Shown one piece after another: positions 1,761-11,621 of a stretch of 11,869 bases of DNA. A program made the position numbers and the translations under genes. The stretch covers positions 1 to 11,869 of the forward strand of contig CADWAF010003395.1 of the NCBI GenBank assembly GCA_902984215.1. Direction: 5' to 3'. The number at the start of each line of letters is the position of its first letter. The stretch's first letter is position 1. A model generated the notes under the pieces. The model worked only from the letters and a program-made list of their open reading frames with translations, was not told the origin of the DNA and ran no database searches. This DNA comes from Willaertia magna. Lineage: Eukaryota > Heterolobosea > Eutetramitea > Acrasida > Naegleriidae.

Positions 1761-2846
1761 ATGAAAAAGTTTAGTACTGCTTGCAATAGTGGTGGTAGAA
1801 GTAATTTGTATCTTACCGATACAGAGATTAAAAGATTAAAAGAGGAAGAAGAGAAGAGGGTCCGTTTGGAAAGATTAAAACAAGTGAGAAATCAGGCAAA
1901 ACTACATGCACATGCAAAGAGAGAAGAATATAAAAAGGTAAGGGAGAAGGAAGTACAAGAACATGTTGGTGTCGTTAAAAAGGCTTGGGAAGAAAGAAAG
2001 GAGGTACAATTAAAAGATCTCAAGGATAAACTAAATGACATTGAGTCAAATATTGGAATTGCTAATCGAAATGCCGTTCTTCATCTAGAACAATTAAAGT
2101 ATCAAGCGTTGGTTGATCAAGAGAAGAGTAAAGTTGCAAGAGAACGAGCAGAACAAAGATTTCAAAAAGGAATGAAAGTAATTCAAGAAAAACGTGAAGT
2201 GGAAAGGAAGAAATTAGACGAAATTGACAATAGAAGAGAAAAAGCAAAAAGCATTGATTACCCAACAGAAAGTGGCACTTTAGTCAATCAAACTCCTTCC
2301 TATGATGAAATATACCTAATGAAAAACCGTCCTTTGAATTCTAATAACAGTTTAATATTAAAGAGAGAAGAAATACTTGAGAACTACTCTAAATCTTACT
2401 TCCACATGAAAGTGCCAGAATCTAAAGAAGAAAAAGAAGAAAAACCTTCCTCTATTCGTGTCAACAAATACGTTATAAAGCACTTTGACTATAATCCAAC
2501 AAGTAACACCAAAGACGTAGAAAAGGTGGAAAGAGAAAGAGAAGAAAAAGAGAAATTGAGAAAACAAAGAGAAAAACAAGCAAAATTACTTGGAAATCAA
2601 GCCGCCCAAAAACTAAGAAACGAAAAATTTAAAGAAACAATAGAAAGCCAGTTGGAGCAAGTAGAAAAGTTGGATAGAAAAACTAAAGTAGAAGCCCTGC
2701 TAAGAAACAGCACAAACACAAACTCACACCAGACATTAGCTGACATGCACATGAAAACGAAGAGGGAACAAGAATTAGAAAAGAAGTTTGAACAAGCATT
2801 TATTCAAAGAGTGCCAACAAGCATTCCTGGCAGCAGCTATTTTTAA
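1761..2846 (+). CDS. CEP295/Ana1-like centriolar coiled-coil protein (short form)
   Basis: A single exon encodes 361 residues, highly charged (Lys/Glu/Arg) and predicted mostly helical. Residues about 16-105 line up without large gaps with the N-terminal region of animal CEP295: LYLTDTEIKRLKEEEEKR (family: LSPNEEAFILKEDYERRR), then RLKQVRNQAK (family: RLLQVREQER), then AWEERKEVQLKDLK (family: EWEESQTQKIQNLE). A second coiled coil spans about 253-350. CEP295 and fly Ana1 are needed to convert centrioles into microtubule-organising centres and are far longer (over 1700 aa), so this would be an N-terminal-only form. Generic coiled-coil similarity is the main risk. The start is the first ATG after the upstream gene's poly(A) signal. 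The stop overlaps the stop of the convergent kinase gene. Confidence 0.55.
   Translation: MKKFSTACNSGGRSNLYLTDTEIKRLKEEEEKRVRLERLKQVRNQAKLHAHAKREEYKKVREKEVQEHVGVVKKAWEERKEVQLKDLKDKLNDIESNIGIANRNAVLHLEQLKYQALVDQEKSKVARERAEQRFQKGMKVIQEKREVERKKLDEIDNRREKAKSIDYPTESGTLVNQTPSYDEIYLMKNRPLNSNNSLILKREEILENYSKSYFHMKVPESKEEKEEKPSSIRVNKYVIKHFDYNPTSNTKDVEKVEREREEKEKLRKQREKQAKLLGNQAAQKLRNEKFKETIESQLEQVEKLDRKTKVEALLRNSTNTNSHQTLADMHMKTKREQELEKKFEQAFIQRVPTSIPGSSYF
2843..2846. other. Overlapping stop codons of two convergent genes (TTAA)
   Basis: The palindrome TTAA supplies TAA to the plus-strand CEP295-like gene (2844-2846) and TAA to the minus-strand kinase gene (2845-2843). Neither gene has any private 3' untranslated DNA, so each transcript's 3' end must lie inside the other's coding sequence. 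Confidence 0.9.
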
Positions 2847-3808
2847 TTGCAAATATCTTTGTATATTTTAGTCCCAATGAACGTGAAGGGAATGGCCGCA
2901 GTCTCATTAAGGTTGGATAATTGTTTTAGATAATCGGTGCTTGATTTTATGATAAAAACGGTGTGTCCTCTCTTTGCAGCTATTCTAAGTGCAGTGGATA
3001 GCTTCCTTTCAAACCCTCCAGTCACATCGTGTTGGTGGGTAATTGTTGTTTGAATGGAATTATGCTCAGTGTGAATGGATGTGTTTTGATTTCTATCATA
3101 TAATTCGATTGAGTATTCCTTTTCGTTGTTTCCTACCTTAATTTCTTTAATTAAATCCTTAAGAATTAAATCATTTTTATTAGAAGGACAAGTTAAATAA
3201 GCTCCATATACATCTGTGACAAATATAAATTGAACCGAAGAATAATCCATTTCAATAATATCATTAGATGTTGCAAAATGAAAAGACAAGGCATCAATTA
3301 TATCATCACCAGAAATAACTTTAAATGGTATTAATTGAGAGGCAGAGTAATGAACATTATTTTGAAAGTTTACATCTCCATGTAATATTGGAACGCATCC
3401 TTGGCTTAATAACTTTAAAATTAACTCTTTAAATTCTTGAGAATGTATTGATGGATAAGCAAAAAGAGATATTCCAATTACTGGAATGTTTTTTTCTAAA
3501 CATTTTTTAATAAGGTAATGATTTAAAGTTTCTACTGCATGTTTAGTTTCAACTATTTTCATAAGAATATTATGATTTATATGATTATTTTCTTTTTCAC
3601 TTTTTAGTAAAGTTTTCACTTCATTCCATTCGAAATGACCGAAAGAACCAGCTCCGTGAATAATAATTGTAGGAATTTGTTGTTGATAAAGATATTGAAT
3701 TTGATCACAACACCAATTTATATTTTCCTCATGATAGGAATGTTTTGTTTCTTTGTTAGTTAAACAACTACCGCCAAACTTGATTATTGAAACATTTTTT
3801 TTGGGCAT
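2843..3808 (-). CDS. IPK: Isopentenyl phosphate kinase
   Basis: An intronless 321-residue amino acid kinase. Motifs in order: IIKFGGSCLT (residues 8-17, nucleotide-binding Lys10 and Gly-rich loop), IIIHGAGSFGHFE (48-60, with His58 at the position of the catalytic histidine that distinguishes isopentenyl phosphate kinases from other members), VIGISLFAYPS (110-120), GCVPILHGDV (137-146), KVISGDDI (163-170), FVTDVYGAYL (196-205), DVTGGFERKL (261-270) and the C-terminal FIGTKI. The enzyme phosphorylates isopentenyl phosphate to isopentenyl diphosphate in the cytosol, feeding isoprenoid synthesis. It is the terminal step of the archaeal mevalonate route and a salvage enzyme in plants and some other eukaryotes. 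Residues about 222-260 form a variable, polar insertion before the DVTGG loop. The gene is convergent with the CEP295-like gene and divergent from the DUF962 gene. Confidence 0.93.
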   Translation of the reverse strand: MPKKNVSIIKFGGSCLTNKETKHSYHEENINWCCDQIQYLYQQQIPTIIIHGAGSFGHFEWNEVKTLLKSEKENNHINHNILMKIVETKHAVETLNHYLIKKCLEKNIPVIGISLFAYPSIHSQEFKELILKLLSQGCVPILHGDVNFQNNVHYSASQLIPFKVISGDDIIDALSFHFATSNDIIEMDYSSVQFIFVTDVYGAYLTCPSNKNDLILKDLIKEIKVGNNEKEYSIELYDRNQNTSIHTEHNSIQTTITHQHDVTGGFERKLSTALRIAAKRGHTVFIIKSSTDYLKQLSNLNETAAIPFTFIGTKIYKDICN

Positions 3809-3912: not shown

Positions 3913-5058
3913 ATGACGTTTATTTTAAATATTTTTGATATTTTATACCTGTTTAATGGTATGTCTATTTTAGGAAATCATATAATAAATAAAAATAAAT
4001 TTTGTAATTTTCTAAAAATAATATTTTTATTTAATTTTAAAACAAAGATGCACAAAACATTTTTAACACAAGAACAAAAAACAATGTCTAGTCCCATCCT
4101 TTCCACTTCCTTCATCTCAAACGAACACCTTGTTGAGGACAACAGTGACAGCAATAACAAACTGTCAACTACTACAAACACATCCAAAACTACAACAAGT
4201 TCAAGTACCACCACAACAAATAACCACGAAACAAAACATGATAATGGTAATCCAATTTTAATATTAAGGAAATTATTCTATCCACTTTATTGTAACATAT
4301 TTGGTAATTGGTATGACAAAACTAATCAAACAGATAATTTATTTGTTGGAGCCTTTTCATTCGTTCATTTCTTTCATTCTTCTTTAGGTAATAGATGGGT
4401 ACACTTTTTTGGTTTAATCCCTTTCTATAGTGGTTTCTTTATTACAATTGGTTCACTTCTTTCTCTTGTAAATTATTATTTTCTATTTAGTCAACCGACA
4501 AGTAATTTTCAACAACCATCTCCTTCCTCAATTACAACAAACAACAACAACATTAACAACATTGATAACAGTAATATCAACAATACTACTTTTTTAATTA
4601 TTCATTCCTTAATAATTTCATGGTCAATTATCTATAACCTATTTATTTTTGGAATTGATAAATATGTTGGAATATGTACTTCCATCTATTCTTTCATTGT
4701 TTTAAAATTTACAATGTTCATCCTTTCCTTCTTCTTCTTCTTTTCTAATAATTATAATTACTTTTCATTATCACCCTCTACCATTAACAATAATCCTTCC
4801 TTAATAATTTATCAAACCTTACTTTTAGGAATAGTAATCTATCTATTAGCTAATTTAATACAATTATTTGGACATTTCTATTTTGATCATAAATCTCCAG
4901 CCTTTTACTATCAAGAAGCCTTCATCATTACTCCAATCTATATCTATTTAAGATGTATCTTAATGGATAATCCATTACTTTCTTACGAACAAGAATGGAA
5001 AAGAAAAATTGAATCCTTATCTACTGAAGAACGTTATCATCCATATAAACGAGATTAA
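3913..5058 (+). CDS. DUF962 / Mpo1-like multi-span membrane protein
   Basis: An open frame of 381 codons. The DUF962 signature is split: SFVHFFHSSLGNRWVHFFGLIP (about residues 147-168, His pattern HxxxHxxxxNRxxHxxG) with a membrane segment after it, and near the end QLFGHFYFDHKSPAFYYQEAFIITPIYI (family: Q..GH..FE...PA). In yeast Mpo1 the conserved His residues bind Fe(II) for alpha-oxidation of 2-hydroxy fatty acids at the ER; this protein may do something similar. Two low-complexity stretches are inserted: a Ser/Thr/Asn-rich tail (about 57-113) and an Asn-rich loop (about 201-223). The start is uncertain. Codons 1-45 are AT-rich and hydrophobic; ATGs at 4048 and 4084 have good A-rich context. 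I kept the longest form because 45 stop-free codons are unlikely in such AT-rich DNA. Confidence 0.75.
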   Translation: MTFILNIFDILYLFNGMSILGNHIINKNKFCNFLKIIFLFNFKTKMHKTFLTQEQKTMSSPILSTSFISNEHLVEDNSDSNNKLSTTTNTSKTTTSSSTTTTNNHETKHDNGNPILILRKLFYPLYCNIFGNWYDKTNQTDNLFVGAFSFVHFFHSSLGNRWVHFFGLIPFYSGFFITIGSLLSLVNYYFLFSQPTSNFQQPSPSSITTNNNNINNIDNSNINNTTFLIIHSLIISWSIIYNLFIFGIDKYVGICTSIYSFIVLKFTMFILSFFFFFSNNYNYFSLSPSTINNNPSLIIYQTLLLGIVIYLLANLIQLFGHFYFDHKSPAFYYQEAFIITPIYIYLRCILMDNPLLSYEQEWKRKIESLSTEERYHPYKRD

Positions 5059-5118: not shown

Positions 5119-5697
5119 TTAATTCTTTTTATGATGAACATCATGTTCATATTCATATTCAACTAATTCATTAGCACTTTGATACATTTGTATAAAATTC
5201 ATGACTTGTTTACCACCCCATGTAGGTACTAATAAAATATAAAATATAATAAAACCTAAAATAGTTTTATTTGGATTTAATAAATCATTATAAAAATATA
5301 AAGCATATAAATAAATATAAAATAATTCATTTCCAACACATAAAATTGCCATAAATAATTTATTAGTATAATATAAAGCTAATAAATAACTTCTATTCCA
5401 ATCAACATCTTTATGACTTGTATTTCCTAAAACTAAACCAACATACATTCTAATCCAATGTGAAATAAAATCTAAAATATTTAATAAAATAAATAGAAAT
5501 ATATAATTTGGATAAAATTTACATAAAATTGTAATTAATGCAGCTGTTGAGAATCTATCTGTAACCATATCTAATACTGCACCAAATCTAGAACATTGAT
5601 TATAATGTCTTGCTGCAATACCATCTAAACCATCTAATAAGAAAGATAAAGTATACATTATTAAAACTAATTTAGGATATGTTTCATATAAAAATAG
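5119..5697 (-). CDS. PIS1: Phosphatidylinositol synthase (CDP-DAG:inositol phosphatidyltransferase), N-terminus missing
   Basis: The open frame from the first Met (5658) gives 179 residues, but homology continues upstream to about 5697: LFLYETYPKLVLIMYTLS aligns gap-free with the region before the active site in yeast Pis1. The CDP-alcohol phosphatidyltransferase signature is complete, D-G-x2-A-R-x8-G-x3-D-x3-D (DGIAARHYNQCSRFGAVLDM then VTD), followed by ISHWIRMY, SHKDVDW, LYYTNK and CVGNELFYIYLY, all phosphatidylinositol synthase hallmarks. It is an integral ER membrane enzyme joining CDP-diacylglycerol and myo-inositol. The first 20-30 residues (the PNxIGYxR segment) are absent: beyond 5695 the DNA switches to antisense RCC1 sequence, with an in-frame TGA at 5709-5707 and no AG splice acceptor between that stop and the homology. 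The retained part shows no damage, so truncation is recent, artefactual, or bypassed by an unseen exon. Confidence 0.85.
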   Translation of the reverse strand, partial: LFLYETYPKLVLIMYTLSFLLDGLDGIAARHYNQCSRFGAVLDMVTDRFSTAALITILCKFYPNYIFLFILLNILDFISHWIRMYVGLVLGNTSHKDVDWNRSYLLALYYTNKLFMAILCVGNELFYIYLYALYFYNDLLNPNKTILGFIIFYILLVPTWGGKQVMNFIQMYQSANELVEYEYEHDVHHKKN

Positions 5698-5700
5698 TTG
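5695..5700. other. Breakpoint: truncated PIS gene joined to RCC1 duplicate
   Basis: From 5695 rightward the sequence matches 10954 onward (shared start TAGTTGTGGAGATC). Immediately left of it (AAAA at 5691-5694 versus TTTT at 10950-10953) there is no match, and the DNA encodes phosphatidylinositol synthase on the other strand. The join falls inside a Ser codon of the RCC1 frame, so it is not a splice site. It is either a duplication/insertion breakpoint or an assembly misjoin. Confidence 0.8.
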
Positions 5701-5834
5701 TGGAGATCATACTTATGGTGCAGATGCTCAACCATTAAACTTTAATTTAATCCCAAATGAATTTCAGTTAGTTGAAAATTGTAAATTTGTTAAAGAAATG
5801 ATGATTGGTTATTTTTTTGGCGCTTTTAAAACTT

Positions 5835-5894
5835 GTAAGTTTTTTATTGTAATTAATATTTACAAAAAGATTAATATTTATTATTTATTAAAAG
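5835..5894 (+). other. 60-nt intron in the truncated RCC1 copy (3n, stop-free)
   Basis: ACTT|GTAAGTTTTT ... TTAAAAG|TGGATG, phase 1. The homologous intron at 11094-11156 is 63 nt and carries an in-frame stop; here small indels removed it, so the frame reads through. Confidence 0.75.
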
Positions 5895-6065
5895 TGGATG
5901 ATAAATATCAAATATTTGGATTAAACAATTTTAATCAATTTTCAAATAATTTTCCACTCGGTAAAATTTATGGACCAACCGATTTTAATTTACAAAATTC
6001 AGAAATTAAACAAGAAGATATTTATCAATTAGAATGTGGTGGATATGGATCTATTATTGTAACAA

Positions 6066-6119
6066 GTAAGTTATATATTTTAAAAAACGTAATTAAAAAT
6101 TCATGTTTTTTAATAATAG
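6066..6119 (+). other. 54-nt intron in the truncated RCC1 copy (3n, stop-free)
   Basis: ACAA|GTAAGTTATA ... TAATAATAG|AAAATTG, phase 1, at the same exon position as the 49-nt intron 11328-11376. The intron bodies share essentially no sequence beyond the splice signals, in contrast to the near-identical preceding exon. Confidence 0.7.
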
Positions 6120-6410
6120 AAAATTGTAAAACTTATACAACTGGATCATTTGGTTGTCCATTTACAAAAACTAATAATAATTATCAAATTACTGAACTTT
6201 CAAATGTTATTTCAATGCATTTGCAAGATTTAAAGAAATTTAAGGTGAAATGTGGCGTTTCGTCAATTGTTTATTTTACGGTTACGAAGAGAGAAGTTGG
6301 AAATATTTTTAATTTTAAAAATATTTGGAAAATAACTGACTGTGATTTTTTGATATAAATTACATTTTTGAAGCACAAATATTTAATAAAATTAAATGTT
6401 ATTTATTTAT

Positions 6411-7835
6411 TTTTTAATAATTTTAGAGAAAATGTTCAATAAAAAAGATGTTTCAGTATTAAATAAATTAATTGATTCTCAAAAAGATTTTATAAAATTA
6501 TTTAACTTACAATTAATAAAAAATTATTATTATTCAATTAATTTTTTAAATAAAATTTTTATTTAAATTACTAAAATCAGTTACAAAATAATAATTGATG
6601 AATTTAAATAATGGAAATATGTTTTTTCCTATTTATTTTTTTTTAAATTTTTATTAATAATTATCAATTTTATATTTACTAAATAAAATAAACATAAATA
6701 CAAGTTTAATAAATAAAATTTGTTATTTTTTAAATACAAATTATAAATAATTATTTTATTTTTTGTAATTGTTTTTATAATTGTTATACTTTATTTTTAC
6801 ATATTATTTACTATATTTATTTCATTTTCTTTCTTAATATCTATTATTATTAAATTTTTTTACTTAATACTATAAATATTTATCATTAAAAAATAATAAA
6901 TCAATATTTTTAATTCTAATTACTTTATTTAATTTTAATAAATTATAAATTTTCTTTTTTATTAAAACCAAAAATTACTGTTATAATTTATTATATAAAT
7001 TTTTATTATTTTTGTAAATTTTTTTTGTTAATATGAATTGTTAAATAAATATTAAATTTATTTATAATAAGTAATTCTTTTAATTTTTTATAAACTTTAT
7101 TACTTTTATATTTTAAAATAGAGATAATTTTAAAATATTTAAAATTTTTATTTATTCAATTAATTACATTCTTATTATAATAATTATTTAAATTTTATTT
7201 TTTATTTTTTATTAATATTTTGTTTTATTTTTATTATTTTAATATTTACAGAATAACAGTTTATAGTTAAGTTTTTATTATAATTTTTTTTATAAATTAA
7301 TATTTTTATTTTATTTTTTATTTTATTAACAAATAATAATACTTATTATTATATATTATTACAATATTTATTATCAATTATAATATAAATTTTTATATTT
7401 AAAAAAATTAAATTTATTATTTTTTTATTTAAATTGTTATTAAAATATATTATTAATATAAATATTATAAATATTATAACTATTAAATTAATTTTTTAAA
7501 AATAATTTATAATTAATAAACAATAATATTAAAATATAAATAACATATTTATTACTTAATATTATAAAAAAATTTTTTAATTATTAAAATTTTTTTACTT
7601 ATTAATATATTTAAATTCGTTAATAAATTTAACAATTTTATAACAAATTTACTTCATTTTTAGCTAATTACAATTAATTTATTAATTATATTTATAAATT
7701 GTAAACTATATTATTAATTTTTTATAAATATATTTATTTATTATAATAGTTAATATATTAATTTTTTTTAAAATAAAGTATTTAAATTTAAAATTATTTA
7801 AAAAATTTAATAATATTTAATTATTAAATTTTTAA
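6411..7835 (+). repeat. Diverged large tandem repeat, left unit
   Basis: Blocks in this unit recur in the same order in the right unit: 6411-6770 with about 7948-8345; 6988-7080 with about 8514-8615; 7601-7710 with about 8656-8755; and 7778-7831 with about 9373-9427. Offsets change from about 1537 to 1576, 1527, 1055 and 1595 bases, so hundreds of bases were lost between blocks two and three and gained between three and four in the right unit. Distinctive shared words include CAATAAAAAAGATGTTT, CAAGTTTAATAAATAAAATT, AATTTACTTCATTTTTAG and AGTATTTAAATTTAAAATT. Confidence 0.7.
6432..6566 (+). pseudogene. 44-codon ORF of unknown origin, duplicated and decayed 1.54 kb downstream
   Basis: MFNKKDVSVLNKLIDSQKDF begins a 44-residue open frame ending ...NKIFI-stop, preceded by a possible splice acceptor (ATTTTAG|AGAAAATG). 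It has the charged-helix look of real protein rather than random AT sequence. A diverged copy at about 7968-8110 keeps IFNKKDV, ILNKLIDFQKD but has lost the ATG (ATG to ATA) and gained a 9-bp insertion with a stop. I do not recognise the family. It could be a remnant exon of a gene once following the RCC1 copy. Confidence 0.4.
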
Positions 7836-7874
7836 TAAATAAATAAAAATAGAAATTTAATAGGAATTTAATAA

Positions 7875-7930
7875 AAAGTTTATTTGTAAAGATAAAAAGT
7901 ATTATAAAAAATTAGATTAAAATTTAAATT
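7875..7930 (+). pseudogene. Decayed remnant of RCC1 exon 2
   Basis: GTTTATTTGTAAAGATAAAA and the following AGTATTATAAAAAATTAGAT match RCC1 exon 2 at about 10564-10622, where the gene encodes VYLSYKDKKYCGKLDQNLF. After a small deletion (ATCT) almost all bases agree. The changes are TGTGG to TATAA and CAA (Gln) to TAA (stop), all toward A/T. Reading frame is destroyed. I see no equally clear neighbouring exons 1 or 3 nearby. Confidence 0.6.
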
Positions 7931-7947
7931 TGATTATTATTAATTAT

Positions 7948-9427
7948 TTTTTAATAATTTTAAAGAATATATTCAATAAAAAAGATGTTTTAATATTAAA
8001 TAAATTAATTGATTTTCAAAAAGATTCTTTATTATTATAAAATTATTTAACTTGCAATCAATAAAAAATTGTTATTATTTAATTAATTTTTTAAACAAAA
8101 ATTTTATTTAAATTAATAAAATCATTATATTGACAATAATTAATGAATTAATTAATAAATGAAATAATAAATTTTTATATTAATAATTGAAATGTTTTTT
8201 TTTGTTTATTTTTTTAAAATTTTTATTAATAATTATTAATTTTAAATTTACTAAATAATATAAAATATAACAAATACAAGTTTAATAAATAAAATTTGTT
8301 TTTTTTTAAAATAAGTTATAAATAATTATTTTATTTTTTATAAATTTTTTGTAATTAATAATAAATAATAAAGTTTTTATTATATTTTATTTTATTTATT
8401 TTTATATATCATTTACTATATATCACTAATTTTTTTTAATTTATTTTTTTTATATCATAAAAATTTTTTTTATAAAAACTATTAAAACAATATAAATATT
8501 ATTAATATAAATAATTTATTATATAAATTTTTATTATTTTTATAATTTTTTTAAATTTTTTTTATTTATATAAACTATTATATAAATATTAAATTTATTT
8601 ATAATAAATAATTCTTCTTATTTTTCATACTCAAACCATTAAAACTTTTATAATTATTAATATATTTAAATTCATTAATAAATATAATAAATTTATAATA
8701 AATTTACTTCATTTTTAGTTAGTTATATTTATTTATTAATTATATTAATTATAAATTCTCTAAAATCATATTATAATCATAAATTTTATTATAAAAAGAA
8801 GTAAGTAATAAAAATTTTAAAAATTATTAAATATTTTTAGATAACTTTTATTATAATTTATAAAAAAATTTTATTTTAAAAAAATTTTTTTTTTATTTAT
8901 TTTATTTTTTTGTTATTTTATTTTTTTTTAAAATGTTTTAGTAAATTAATTATATATTAATATTAAAATAATAAAAGCTATTATAATTATTTAAAATATT
9001 TTTATAAAAGAAAAATAAAAAAATTATTCAATAAAATAAAAATTTTTATAAATTTTTATCTATAAATGTTTTAATATTATTAAATTTAATATATAATAGA
9101 TTTTAAATATTAAAAATAAGTTTAATATAAATAATTTAAATAAATTTTTAAATAAATTTAATTTAAAAAATAATAAAGAAACTAATAAATATAATAATAA
9201 TAATATTATACAAAATAATTTATAAATAAATAAAAAAGAAATATAAAAATTTTTAAAAAATAAAAATTAAAAAATAAATATTTATATTTTAAAAAAATAT
9301 TAAATTTAATAAATAAAAATTTATTATTAATTTATAAAAAATAATTCATATTAATTTATTTGTTAATATGAAGTATTTAAATTTAAAATTATTTAAAAAA
9401 TTTAACAATATATAAATTATTAAATTT
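7948..9427 (+). repeat. Diverged large tandem repeat, right unit
   Basis: Second copy of the 6411-7835 unit, with the block correspondences given there. It starts directly after the decayed RCC1 exon at 7875-7930, just as the left unit starts directly after the last RCC1 exon of the truncated copy. That suggests the original duplicated unit included RCC1 gene sequence. Several differences in the first block are C-to-T or G-to-A relative to the left unit. Confidence 0.65.
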
Positions 9428-10067
9428 TAATAGACAAATTATTAAAATTATTAAATTTATAAATAATATTATAAACAAAAATAAATATACTTATTTTTTA
9501 TATAATTTACTAAAATAATATTCAAATATATCTTTATTTAAAGAACTTTTAGAAATATTTTTATATATTTTATAAAAATTAAATTATAGTGATCATTTAA
9601 TTTAATTTTTATTCTTAACCCTAAACTTTTATTGCTTTTGATATAATATTTTTTTATTTTTATTTATAATGTTTGATATATATTATTTTAATATTGTTTT
9701 TTCAAAGAAAACTTGATTATAGTTAATAAATTTTATTTAAAAAAAGATTAATTATAGTGTTATATAAAAATAAAAAAAATATAAAATTTTAAAAAGTTAA
9801 ATTAAATTTTTTTATTTATTTTTTAATTTAATTTTAAATAACTTTATTAAATTAATAAAAAAATAAAAAATAAAGTTTTTTTAATAAAATTTAAAAAATA
9901 AACTATATTTAAAATAACATATTATTAGTTAATATATGATATAATAAAAATTATTTCTTTATTAATAAACTTACTATTATCAATAATTTTAATATATTTA
10001 TTTCAAATACAAAATTAATATGTTAATTTAGTATATTATTATATCAACTAGTTTTCAGCTTATAAAT

Positions 10068-11621
10068 ATGAATAAACAAATAAAAAAAATGTGGCTCTTT
10101 AAAAAGAAGAAATCAATTCCGAAAAATATTATCATTCATAAAACCATTTCAGACATCACAACTTTAAAATCAACTTTATTAAAGGAACAGTCAACAAACA
10201 ATTTCTTATTCATTACCAATTCAATTTTAGCAAATAATTCAATTTTAATTTTTGGATTGTCAATTAAAGATGTTCAAACAAGTTATGATTATACTTTTAT
10301 TTTAACAACTGATGGAACTGTTTATGTTGTTTCACATTTATTAAAACCACAAAATTTAAAAGATGAATTTTGGAAAGGAATTAATTTTAAAAAAGATTGT
10401 GTTGATTATTTTAAATTTACAAAAAATGATCCAATTGAAAGTATTTCAGCTAAATGGGGAAATAATTATGCTTTTATTACGAGTAAGTGTTGTTAATTAT
10501 TGTAAATTGTATTTTATTGTAAATTATGTAAAATAATGATTTCCACAAACAGAAAAAGGAGAAGTTTATTTATCTTATAAAGATAAAAAATATTGTGGAA
10601 AATTAGATCAAAATTTATTTGAAAATAAAAAGATTATTAAAGTGGCATCTGGAGTTGATCATATTTTATTTTTAACAAGTGGCAGTTGCGTTTATTCTTT
10701 AGGAACAACTTGTAAGTTTATTTTACAAAAACATTTTTTTTTACACAATTAATTTATACAAAATAAAATTTACAATAATAGTTAATGGAAAACTTGGACA
10801 TGGAAGAAATATAAATTATAAATCAGCTTCTTTTGATTATATTTTTGGTAAATGTAATTTAGATAATATTTTACAAAATAATAATACAAAAATAATTGAC
10901 ATTGGTGCTTCTTACAATACAAGTTTTTTTTTAACTGACAATGGTCAAGTTTTTAGTTGTGGAGATCATACTTATGGTGCAGATGCTCAACCATTAAACT
11001 TTAATTTAATCCCAAATGAATTTCAGTTAGTTGAAAATTGTAAATTTGTTAAAGAAATGATAATTGGTTATTTTTTTGGCTCTTTTAAAACTTGTAAGTT
11101 TTTTATTGTAATTAATATTTACAAAAAGATTATTTAATATTATTTATTATTAAAAGTGGACGATAAATATCAAATATTTGGATTAAATAATTTTAATCAA
11201 TTTTCAAATAATTTTCCAACAGATAAAATTTATGGACCAACCGATTTTAATTTACAAAATTCAGAAATTAAACAAGAAGATATTTATCAATTAGAATGTG
11301 GTGGATATGGAACAATTATTGTAACAAGTAAGTACTTAAAAAAAATAGATAATTGTTAATAATTGGTATTGTATAGAAAATTGTAAAGTTTACTCAACTG
11401 GAGCTCACAGTTGTCTATTTTTAAAGAAAGAAGATTCTAATTATCAAATGATAGAACATTCAGATGTTATTTCAAAGTTTATTAAAGATGTAAAGAGATT
11501 TAAAGTTAGATGCAGTGTACATTCAGTTGTTTACTTTACAGTTACAAAAAAAGAAATTGTAGATATTTTTAATTTTAAAAATGTATGGAAAATAGTTGAT
11601 TGTGATTTTATATTTAATTAA
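10068..11621 (+). CDS. RCC1-like seven-bladed propeller protein (five exons, 433 aa)
   Basis: Exons 10068-10482, 10553-10711, 10782-11093, 11157-11327 and 11377-11621 join to 434 codons including TAA. Repeats of the type (V/I)xxIxxGxxxxxFLTxxGxVYxxG can be followed: ESISAKWGNNYAFITKKGEV, KVASGVDHILFLTSGSCVYS then LGTTFNGKLGHG, DIGASYNTSFFLTDNGQVFS then CGDHTYGADA, EMIIGYFFGSFKTLDDKYQI then FGLNN, QLECGGYGTIIVTKNCKVYS then TG, and a C-terminal blade ending WKIVDCDFIFN. Seven blades fit the RCC1 fold, a beta-propeller used for protein binding and, in RCC1 itself, Ran nucleotide exchange. The Gly and catalytic-face residues are degenerate, so Ran exchange activity is unlikely and the partner is unknown. 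The start ATG follows AT-rich DNA; MNKQIKKMWLFKKKK is a basic N-terminus, with a second in-frame ATG at 10089. No signal peptide or membrane span. Confidence 0.8.
10483..10552 (+). other. Intron 1 of the RCC1 gene (70 nt, phase 1)
   Basis: TTACGA|GTAAGTGTTG ... CCACAAACAG|AAAAAGGAGAAG. Reading through meets TAA within five codons of the donor. Splicing yields FITK-KGEVYLSY, continuing the blade consensus. Confidence 0.85.
10712..10781 (+). other. Intron 2 of the RCC1 gene (70 nt, phase 1)
   Basis: ACAACTT|GTAAGTTTAT ... TACAATAATAG|TTAATGGAAAAC. Splicing yields SLGTTF-NGKLGHGRN, the canonical RCC1 GxxxxGxLGHG motif. Confidence 0.88.
11094..11156 (+). other. Intron 3 of the RCC1 gene (63 nt, phase 1)
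   Basis: AAAACTT|GTAAGTTTTT ... TTATTAAAAG|TGGACGATAAA. Contains an in-frame TAA. Nearly identical in sequence to the intron at 5835-5894 except for small indels. Confidence 0.85.
11328..11376 (+). other. Intron 4 of the RCC1 gene (49 nt, phase 1)
   Basis: GTAACAA|GTAAGTACTT ... GGTATTGTATAG|AAAATTGTAAAG. Splicing yields IIVTK-NCKVYSTG. Differs in sequence from the positionally equivalent intron 6066-6119. Confidence 0.85.

Follow-up and report, generated by a model that had tools for sequence, protein, structure and literature searches.

Willaertia magna is a free-living amoeba related to Naegleria. Phosphatidylinositol synthase (PIS; CDP-diacylglycerol--inositol 3-phosphatidyltransferase) is normally essential (yeast PIS1) and is a CDP-alcohol phosphatidyltransferase, a family for which we take DGxxARx8GxxxDxxxD to be the signature motif. 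The closest described counterpart of the locus studied here is a 336,893-bp contig of W. magna on which four consecutively tagged genes, ABK040_004012-004015, code for an RCC1-like protein (RCC1-B), a second RCC1-like protein (RCC1-A), an intact PIS and an Mpo1-like protein. We infer that the ABK040 tags belong to the assembly of strain T5(S)44, a nanopore/Illumina assembly (PMC11702301); the text of that paper does not contain the prefix itself. For strain c2c maky, a short-read assembly was obtained from a library of ~400 bp sequenced as paired 150-base reads (2 x 150; PMC6892926), and the passage on Table 3 of PMC7696429 gives one phosphatidylinositol marker from the lipidomics of adherent cultures. 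The main text of PMC7285305 contains none of the terms inositol, CDP-diacylglycerol and RCC1.

The stretch of DNA analysed here (the window) is one entire contig of 11,869 bases in an 894-contig, 19.24-Mb genome assembly from W. magna or a species very close to it. Its predicted proteins match ABK040-tagged proteins of W. magna, namely PIS at 99% (P0001, ABK040_004014), RCC1-B at 100% (rounded) over 98% (P0121, ABK040_004012) and the Mpo1-like protein at 98% (P0130, ABK040_004015). The gene order in the window is that of the ABK040 tags, reversed; the comparison drew on protein names, tags and contig size, so that order in the other assembly means tag order and not DNA. The gene for the Mpo1-like membrane protein (4084..5058, plus strand), in which PF06127 was detected only weakly (19 bits versus a cut-off of 24), is the syntenic neighbour of PIS on its other side, its counterpart lying on the same 336,893-bp contig. 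Because its product differs from P0130 by 7 substitutions in 324 residues, the window comes, as judged from predicted proteins, from a different assembly and a different haplotype than the ABK040 contig. It may derive from the short-read assembly of strain c2c maky (PMC6892926).

PIS is encoded on the minus strand at 5119..5694, within an open frame (5706-5119) assigned to the CDP-alcohol phosphatidyltransferases (PF01066, 46.9 bits versus a curated cut-off of 22). From codon 48 to the stop codon, i.e., over residues 48-238 of 238, it is identical to ABK040_004014 at 191 of 191 residues. The ungapped match described in the initial annotation was confirmed, while its end is shifted from about 5697 to 5694, where the last identical codon terminates. 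The signature motif is present, with D68, D71, G72, A75, R76, G85, D89 and D93 (P0001 numbering) invariant in a nine-row alignment including the remnant; a PIS would form phosphatidylinositol from CDP-diacylglycerol and inositol. A single-sequence search of solved structures yielded no match; the profile search retrieved five distant enzymes (best E 6.8e-05). Codons 1-47, present in ABK040_004014, are absent from the window, and with them the YIPNIIGYLR region. The corresponding pattern YxPNxIG[YFW]xR, defined here from the eight full-length rows of the alignment, was recognized by eye in all eight of these relatives. Since this N-terminal region is absent, the predicted product is a PIS fragment and not a complete family member.

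On the plus strand, 5695..6358 carries the gene model of a headless RCC1-A, comprising the end of exon 3 (to 5834), an intron (5835-5894), exon 4, a further intron (6066-6119) and exon 5 with the stop codon. Both introns, the open frame and the stop are retained, and the encoded 182 residues are all identical to positions 236-417 of the 417-residue ABK040_004013 (P0122), which by tag order has the same neighbours; ABK040_004013 is whole, whereas the remnant lacks residues 1-235. The open frame of the tail gave no family at E 0.1 in the curated-profile search; intact P0122 carries PF00415, PF13540 and PF25390 (precomputed), and the exon 3 frame of RCC1-B matches PF13540 (31.3 bits, cut-off 22). 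The lack of decay initially observed for PIS was found again (191/191) and likewise applies to RCC1-A (182/182). At the level of predicted proteins, the comparison shows that each remnant is the tail of a gene, without any change relative to its counterpart in another W. magna assembly, where both genes are whole and bear consecutive tags.

The two remnants abut at 5694..5695, the last base of PIS and the first of RCC1-A; they have no bases in common at this join, which also lacks any N. The initial annotation had placed this join inside codons of both genes, which is correct for RCC1-A, where 5695 is the last base of the F235 codon (P0122 frame), but not for PIS, where it falls between two codons. 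The reported 97% similarity to a segment starting at 10954 was reproduced over 5695-5890, the first 108 bases being identical and no base being identical upstream of the edge; a chance resemblance is excluded (E 5.7e-91). This segment belongs to RCC1-B (10068..11621, plus strand), a complete five-exon RCC1-like gene model differing from P0121 by a start 7 residues longer, one extra residue and one substitution.

The interpretation of 5695 as the edge of an RCC1 duplicate did not stand, as the RCC1 sequence there represents the 3' part of a distinct paralogue that is complete in the other assembly, and in that paralogue the near-identity reaches further upstream. Between the RCC1-A and RCC1-B proteins it spans residues ~101-340 (16-20 of 20 identical per block), with about half of the residues identical on either side, and it is this shared central tract that gave rise to the apparent 97% duplicate. 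Within the window, once gap columns are excluded (three for intron 3, 17 for intron 4 and 10 for exon 5), DNA identity declines from the exon 3 part (137/139, 98.6%) over intron 3 (56/60, 93.3%), exon 4 (163/171, 95.3%) and intron 4 (34/43, 79.1%) to exon 5 (183/240, 76.2%), and similarity extends to the stop at 6358. As intron 3 lies inside the near-identical tract, gene conversion between the tandem RCC1 paralogues would be its simplest cause. The edge at 5695 is accordingly best read, from the alignments, as the end of a missing stretch within this tract and not as the start of a copied segment. An origin of the RCC1 piece as a copy of the 10068 gene inserted into PIS was also considered and rejected, the piece being identical to the separate gene ABK040_004013 at 182 of 182 residues, including exon 5, for which the two copies in the window agree at only 183 of 240 bases.

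The consecutive tags 004013 and 004014 argue for one locus with its middle missing. The initially suggested misjoin of two loci through the repeat is thus retained in kind, as an assembly fault, and not in its particulars, since a single locus is concerned and the sides of the join share no bases. PIS (minus strand) and RCC1-A (plus strand) would be neighbours with their front ends facing, the head-to-head order in the other assembly being deduced from the window. A single loss would then extend from PIS codon 47 through both gene starts and the intergenic sequence to RCC1-A codon 235; with one stretch missing between PIS codon 48 and RCC1-A codon 236, both genes are left headless. The missing stretch amounts to at least 845 coding bases (~47 + 235 codons), plus any RCC1-A introns and the intergenic sequence.

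We consider it most likely, with a probability of roughly two in three, that this stretch was lost in the assembly and not in the cell, both genes being whole in the species. This is favoured because PIS is normally essential, neither remnant has decayed and the whole pair exists in W. magna; the cell would then possess a normal PIS. The phosphatidylinositol marker of strain c2c maky is in keeping with this, though a further PIS copy or the culture medium could also account for it. The lost part would comprise intergenic sequence, probably as rich in A+T as the nearby spacer, and part of the near-identical tract of RCC1-A and RCC1-B, both of which would be hard to assemble from short reads. 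The locus agrees with an assembly omission between adjacent genes of a draft genome in that both flanking genes are cut at one point, and in that an independent assembly has them complete and under consecutive tags. It differs in that the usual signature of repeat collapse is missing: such a collapse should join within the repeat, whereas the join is clean, free of N and not located within sequence common to its two sides. Furthermore, if the strain is c2c maky, as it may be, a library of ~400 bp cannot span 845 or more bases, and the join is then unlikely to have arisen simply by closing a gap between genuine pairs of reads. Screening of 60 loci (129,532 bases in total, including overlaps and copies of the window) revealed no N runs, which says little.

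The missing heads were searched for in the 894-contig genome. Twenty of its contigs, sampled by number, measured 10,505-50,100 bases, and the searched genome appears restricted to contigs of at least ~10 kb. Among these contigs, the only PIS match was the remnant of the window itself. The PIS head was found there neither by protein search nor with a degenerate YIPNIIGY pattern, which would miss an intron-split codon, while matched queries from the retained part of PIS, used as positive controls, were found. For RCC1-A residues 1-234, nothing above 87% was present among the best 50 matches in the same genome, the top ones representing RCC1-B. That the two heads appear to be missing together is what a single lost stretch would predict and points weakly in this direction. 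Because the searched contigs seem to start at ~10 kb, failure to find the heads elsewhere carries little weight. The same applies to two proposals of the initial annotation, another PIS copy with an intact N-terminus and a first exon located elsewhere, neither of which was recovered from these contigs of apparently at least ~10 kb; a distant first exon was dropped as a candidate on this basis, although contigs below ~10 kb seemingly fell outside the search.

A clean join without shared bases or N is also what blunt end-joining would give, and a genuine deletion in the strain, removing both heads and the space between them from one of several alleles or from one copy, is a possible, tentatively held explanation; the initial annotation had likewise proposed a recent rearrangement disrupting one allele or copy. 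It would place the intact allele or copy outside the searched contigs. In addition to the join itself, which short-insert libraries cannot easily create (provided that the strain is c2c maky), headless RCC1 tails appear to exist elsewhere, behind a thioredoxin gene of the same genome (C737) and in P0127 of the other assembly. On the other hand, both genes would be non-functional on that allele, yet their 373 retained residues show not a single change, so that a very recent event is needed, and a second PIS was not found in the 894-contig genome, apparently limited to contigs of at least ~10 kb. That a natural deletion has left one W. magna strain with at least one allele lacking a working PIS appears unlikely. 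If it were true, the strain would provide a natural test of whether this amoeba can live with fewer working PIS alleles or takes up phosphatidylinositol, the deletion being tolerated through extra alleles or through such uptake.

Very improbable is a strain truly devoid of a working PIS, which would take phosphatidylinositol from food or medium or would use a headless enzyme translated from an internal start, the first methionine of the open frame being codon 17. The lack of another PIS in the 894-contig genome and the retained residues of the catalytic motif would agree with it; opposed to it are the loss of the YxPNxIG[YFW]xR region common to all eight full-length relatives, the disappearance of the sequence upstream of both remnants, the lack of decay and the incompleteness of the searched genome. 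Equally little can be said for a normal spliced first exon upstream, which would render the enzyme whole after splicing. Introns are common enough for this, the RCC1 genes of the contig having short ones, yet no head-coding match was found on the contig or in the 894-contig genome (contigs apparently of at least ~10 kb), and the upstream sequence belongs to the tail of RCC1-A and is identical to a different gene. Moreover, inspection of the minus strand by eye showed an in-frame TGA between the nearest AG upstream of the join and the PIS frame, leaving no usable splice acceptor for PIS, in agreement with the initial annotation.

With omission during assembly as the preferred reading, the biology behind the join is probably ordinary, and the locus serves chiefly as a warning: where a draft assembly is fragmented and a gene in it seems to have lost its head, a second assembly should be consulted before any biological meaning is drawn from the loss.

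Further RCC1-related sequences were observed. The tail on contig C737 (locus ~1400-2020), apparently headless as judged by eye, lies behind a thioredoxin-domain gene; in the other assembly the two are annotated together as a single protein (P0127, ABK040_005263), which may reflect a fused gene model. At the very start of contig C230, positions 103-348 of its first 350 bases hold a degenerate RCC1 sequence interrupted by several stops, and another RCC1 relative extends to base 7 of contig C268. In the window, RCC1-A and RCC1-B are separated by a 3.7-kb AT-rich spacer (6362..10067; 6.6% G+C) with degenerate repeats, including two similar units (6387-7120 and 7918-8664, 76%). At 7879-7926, a sequence 86% identical to 10569-10617 (E 6e-8) may be the relic of an RCC1 exon, with other low-complexity matches there reaching similar E values; older RCC1 copies may have decayed in this spacer. 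Upstream of the Mpo1-like gene, the minus strand carries a gene of the amino-acid-kinase family (2846-3808), with isopentenyl phosphate kinase as its best match (NF040647, 116.2 bits, narrowly under the cut-off of 120).
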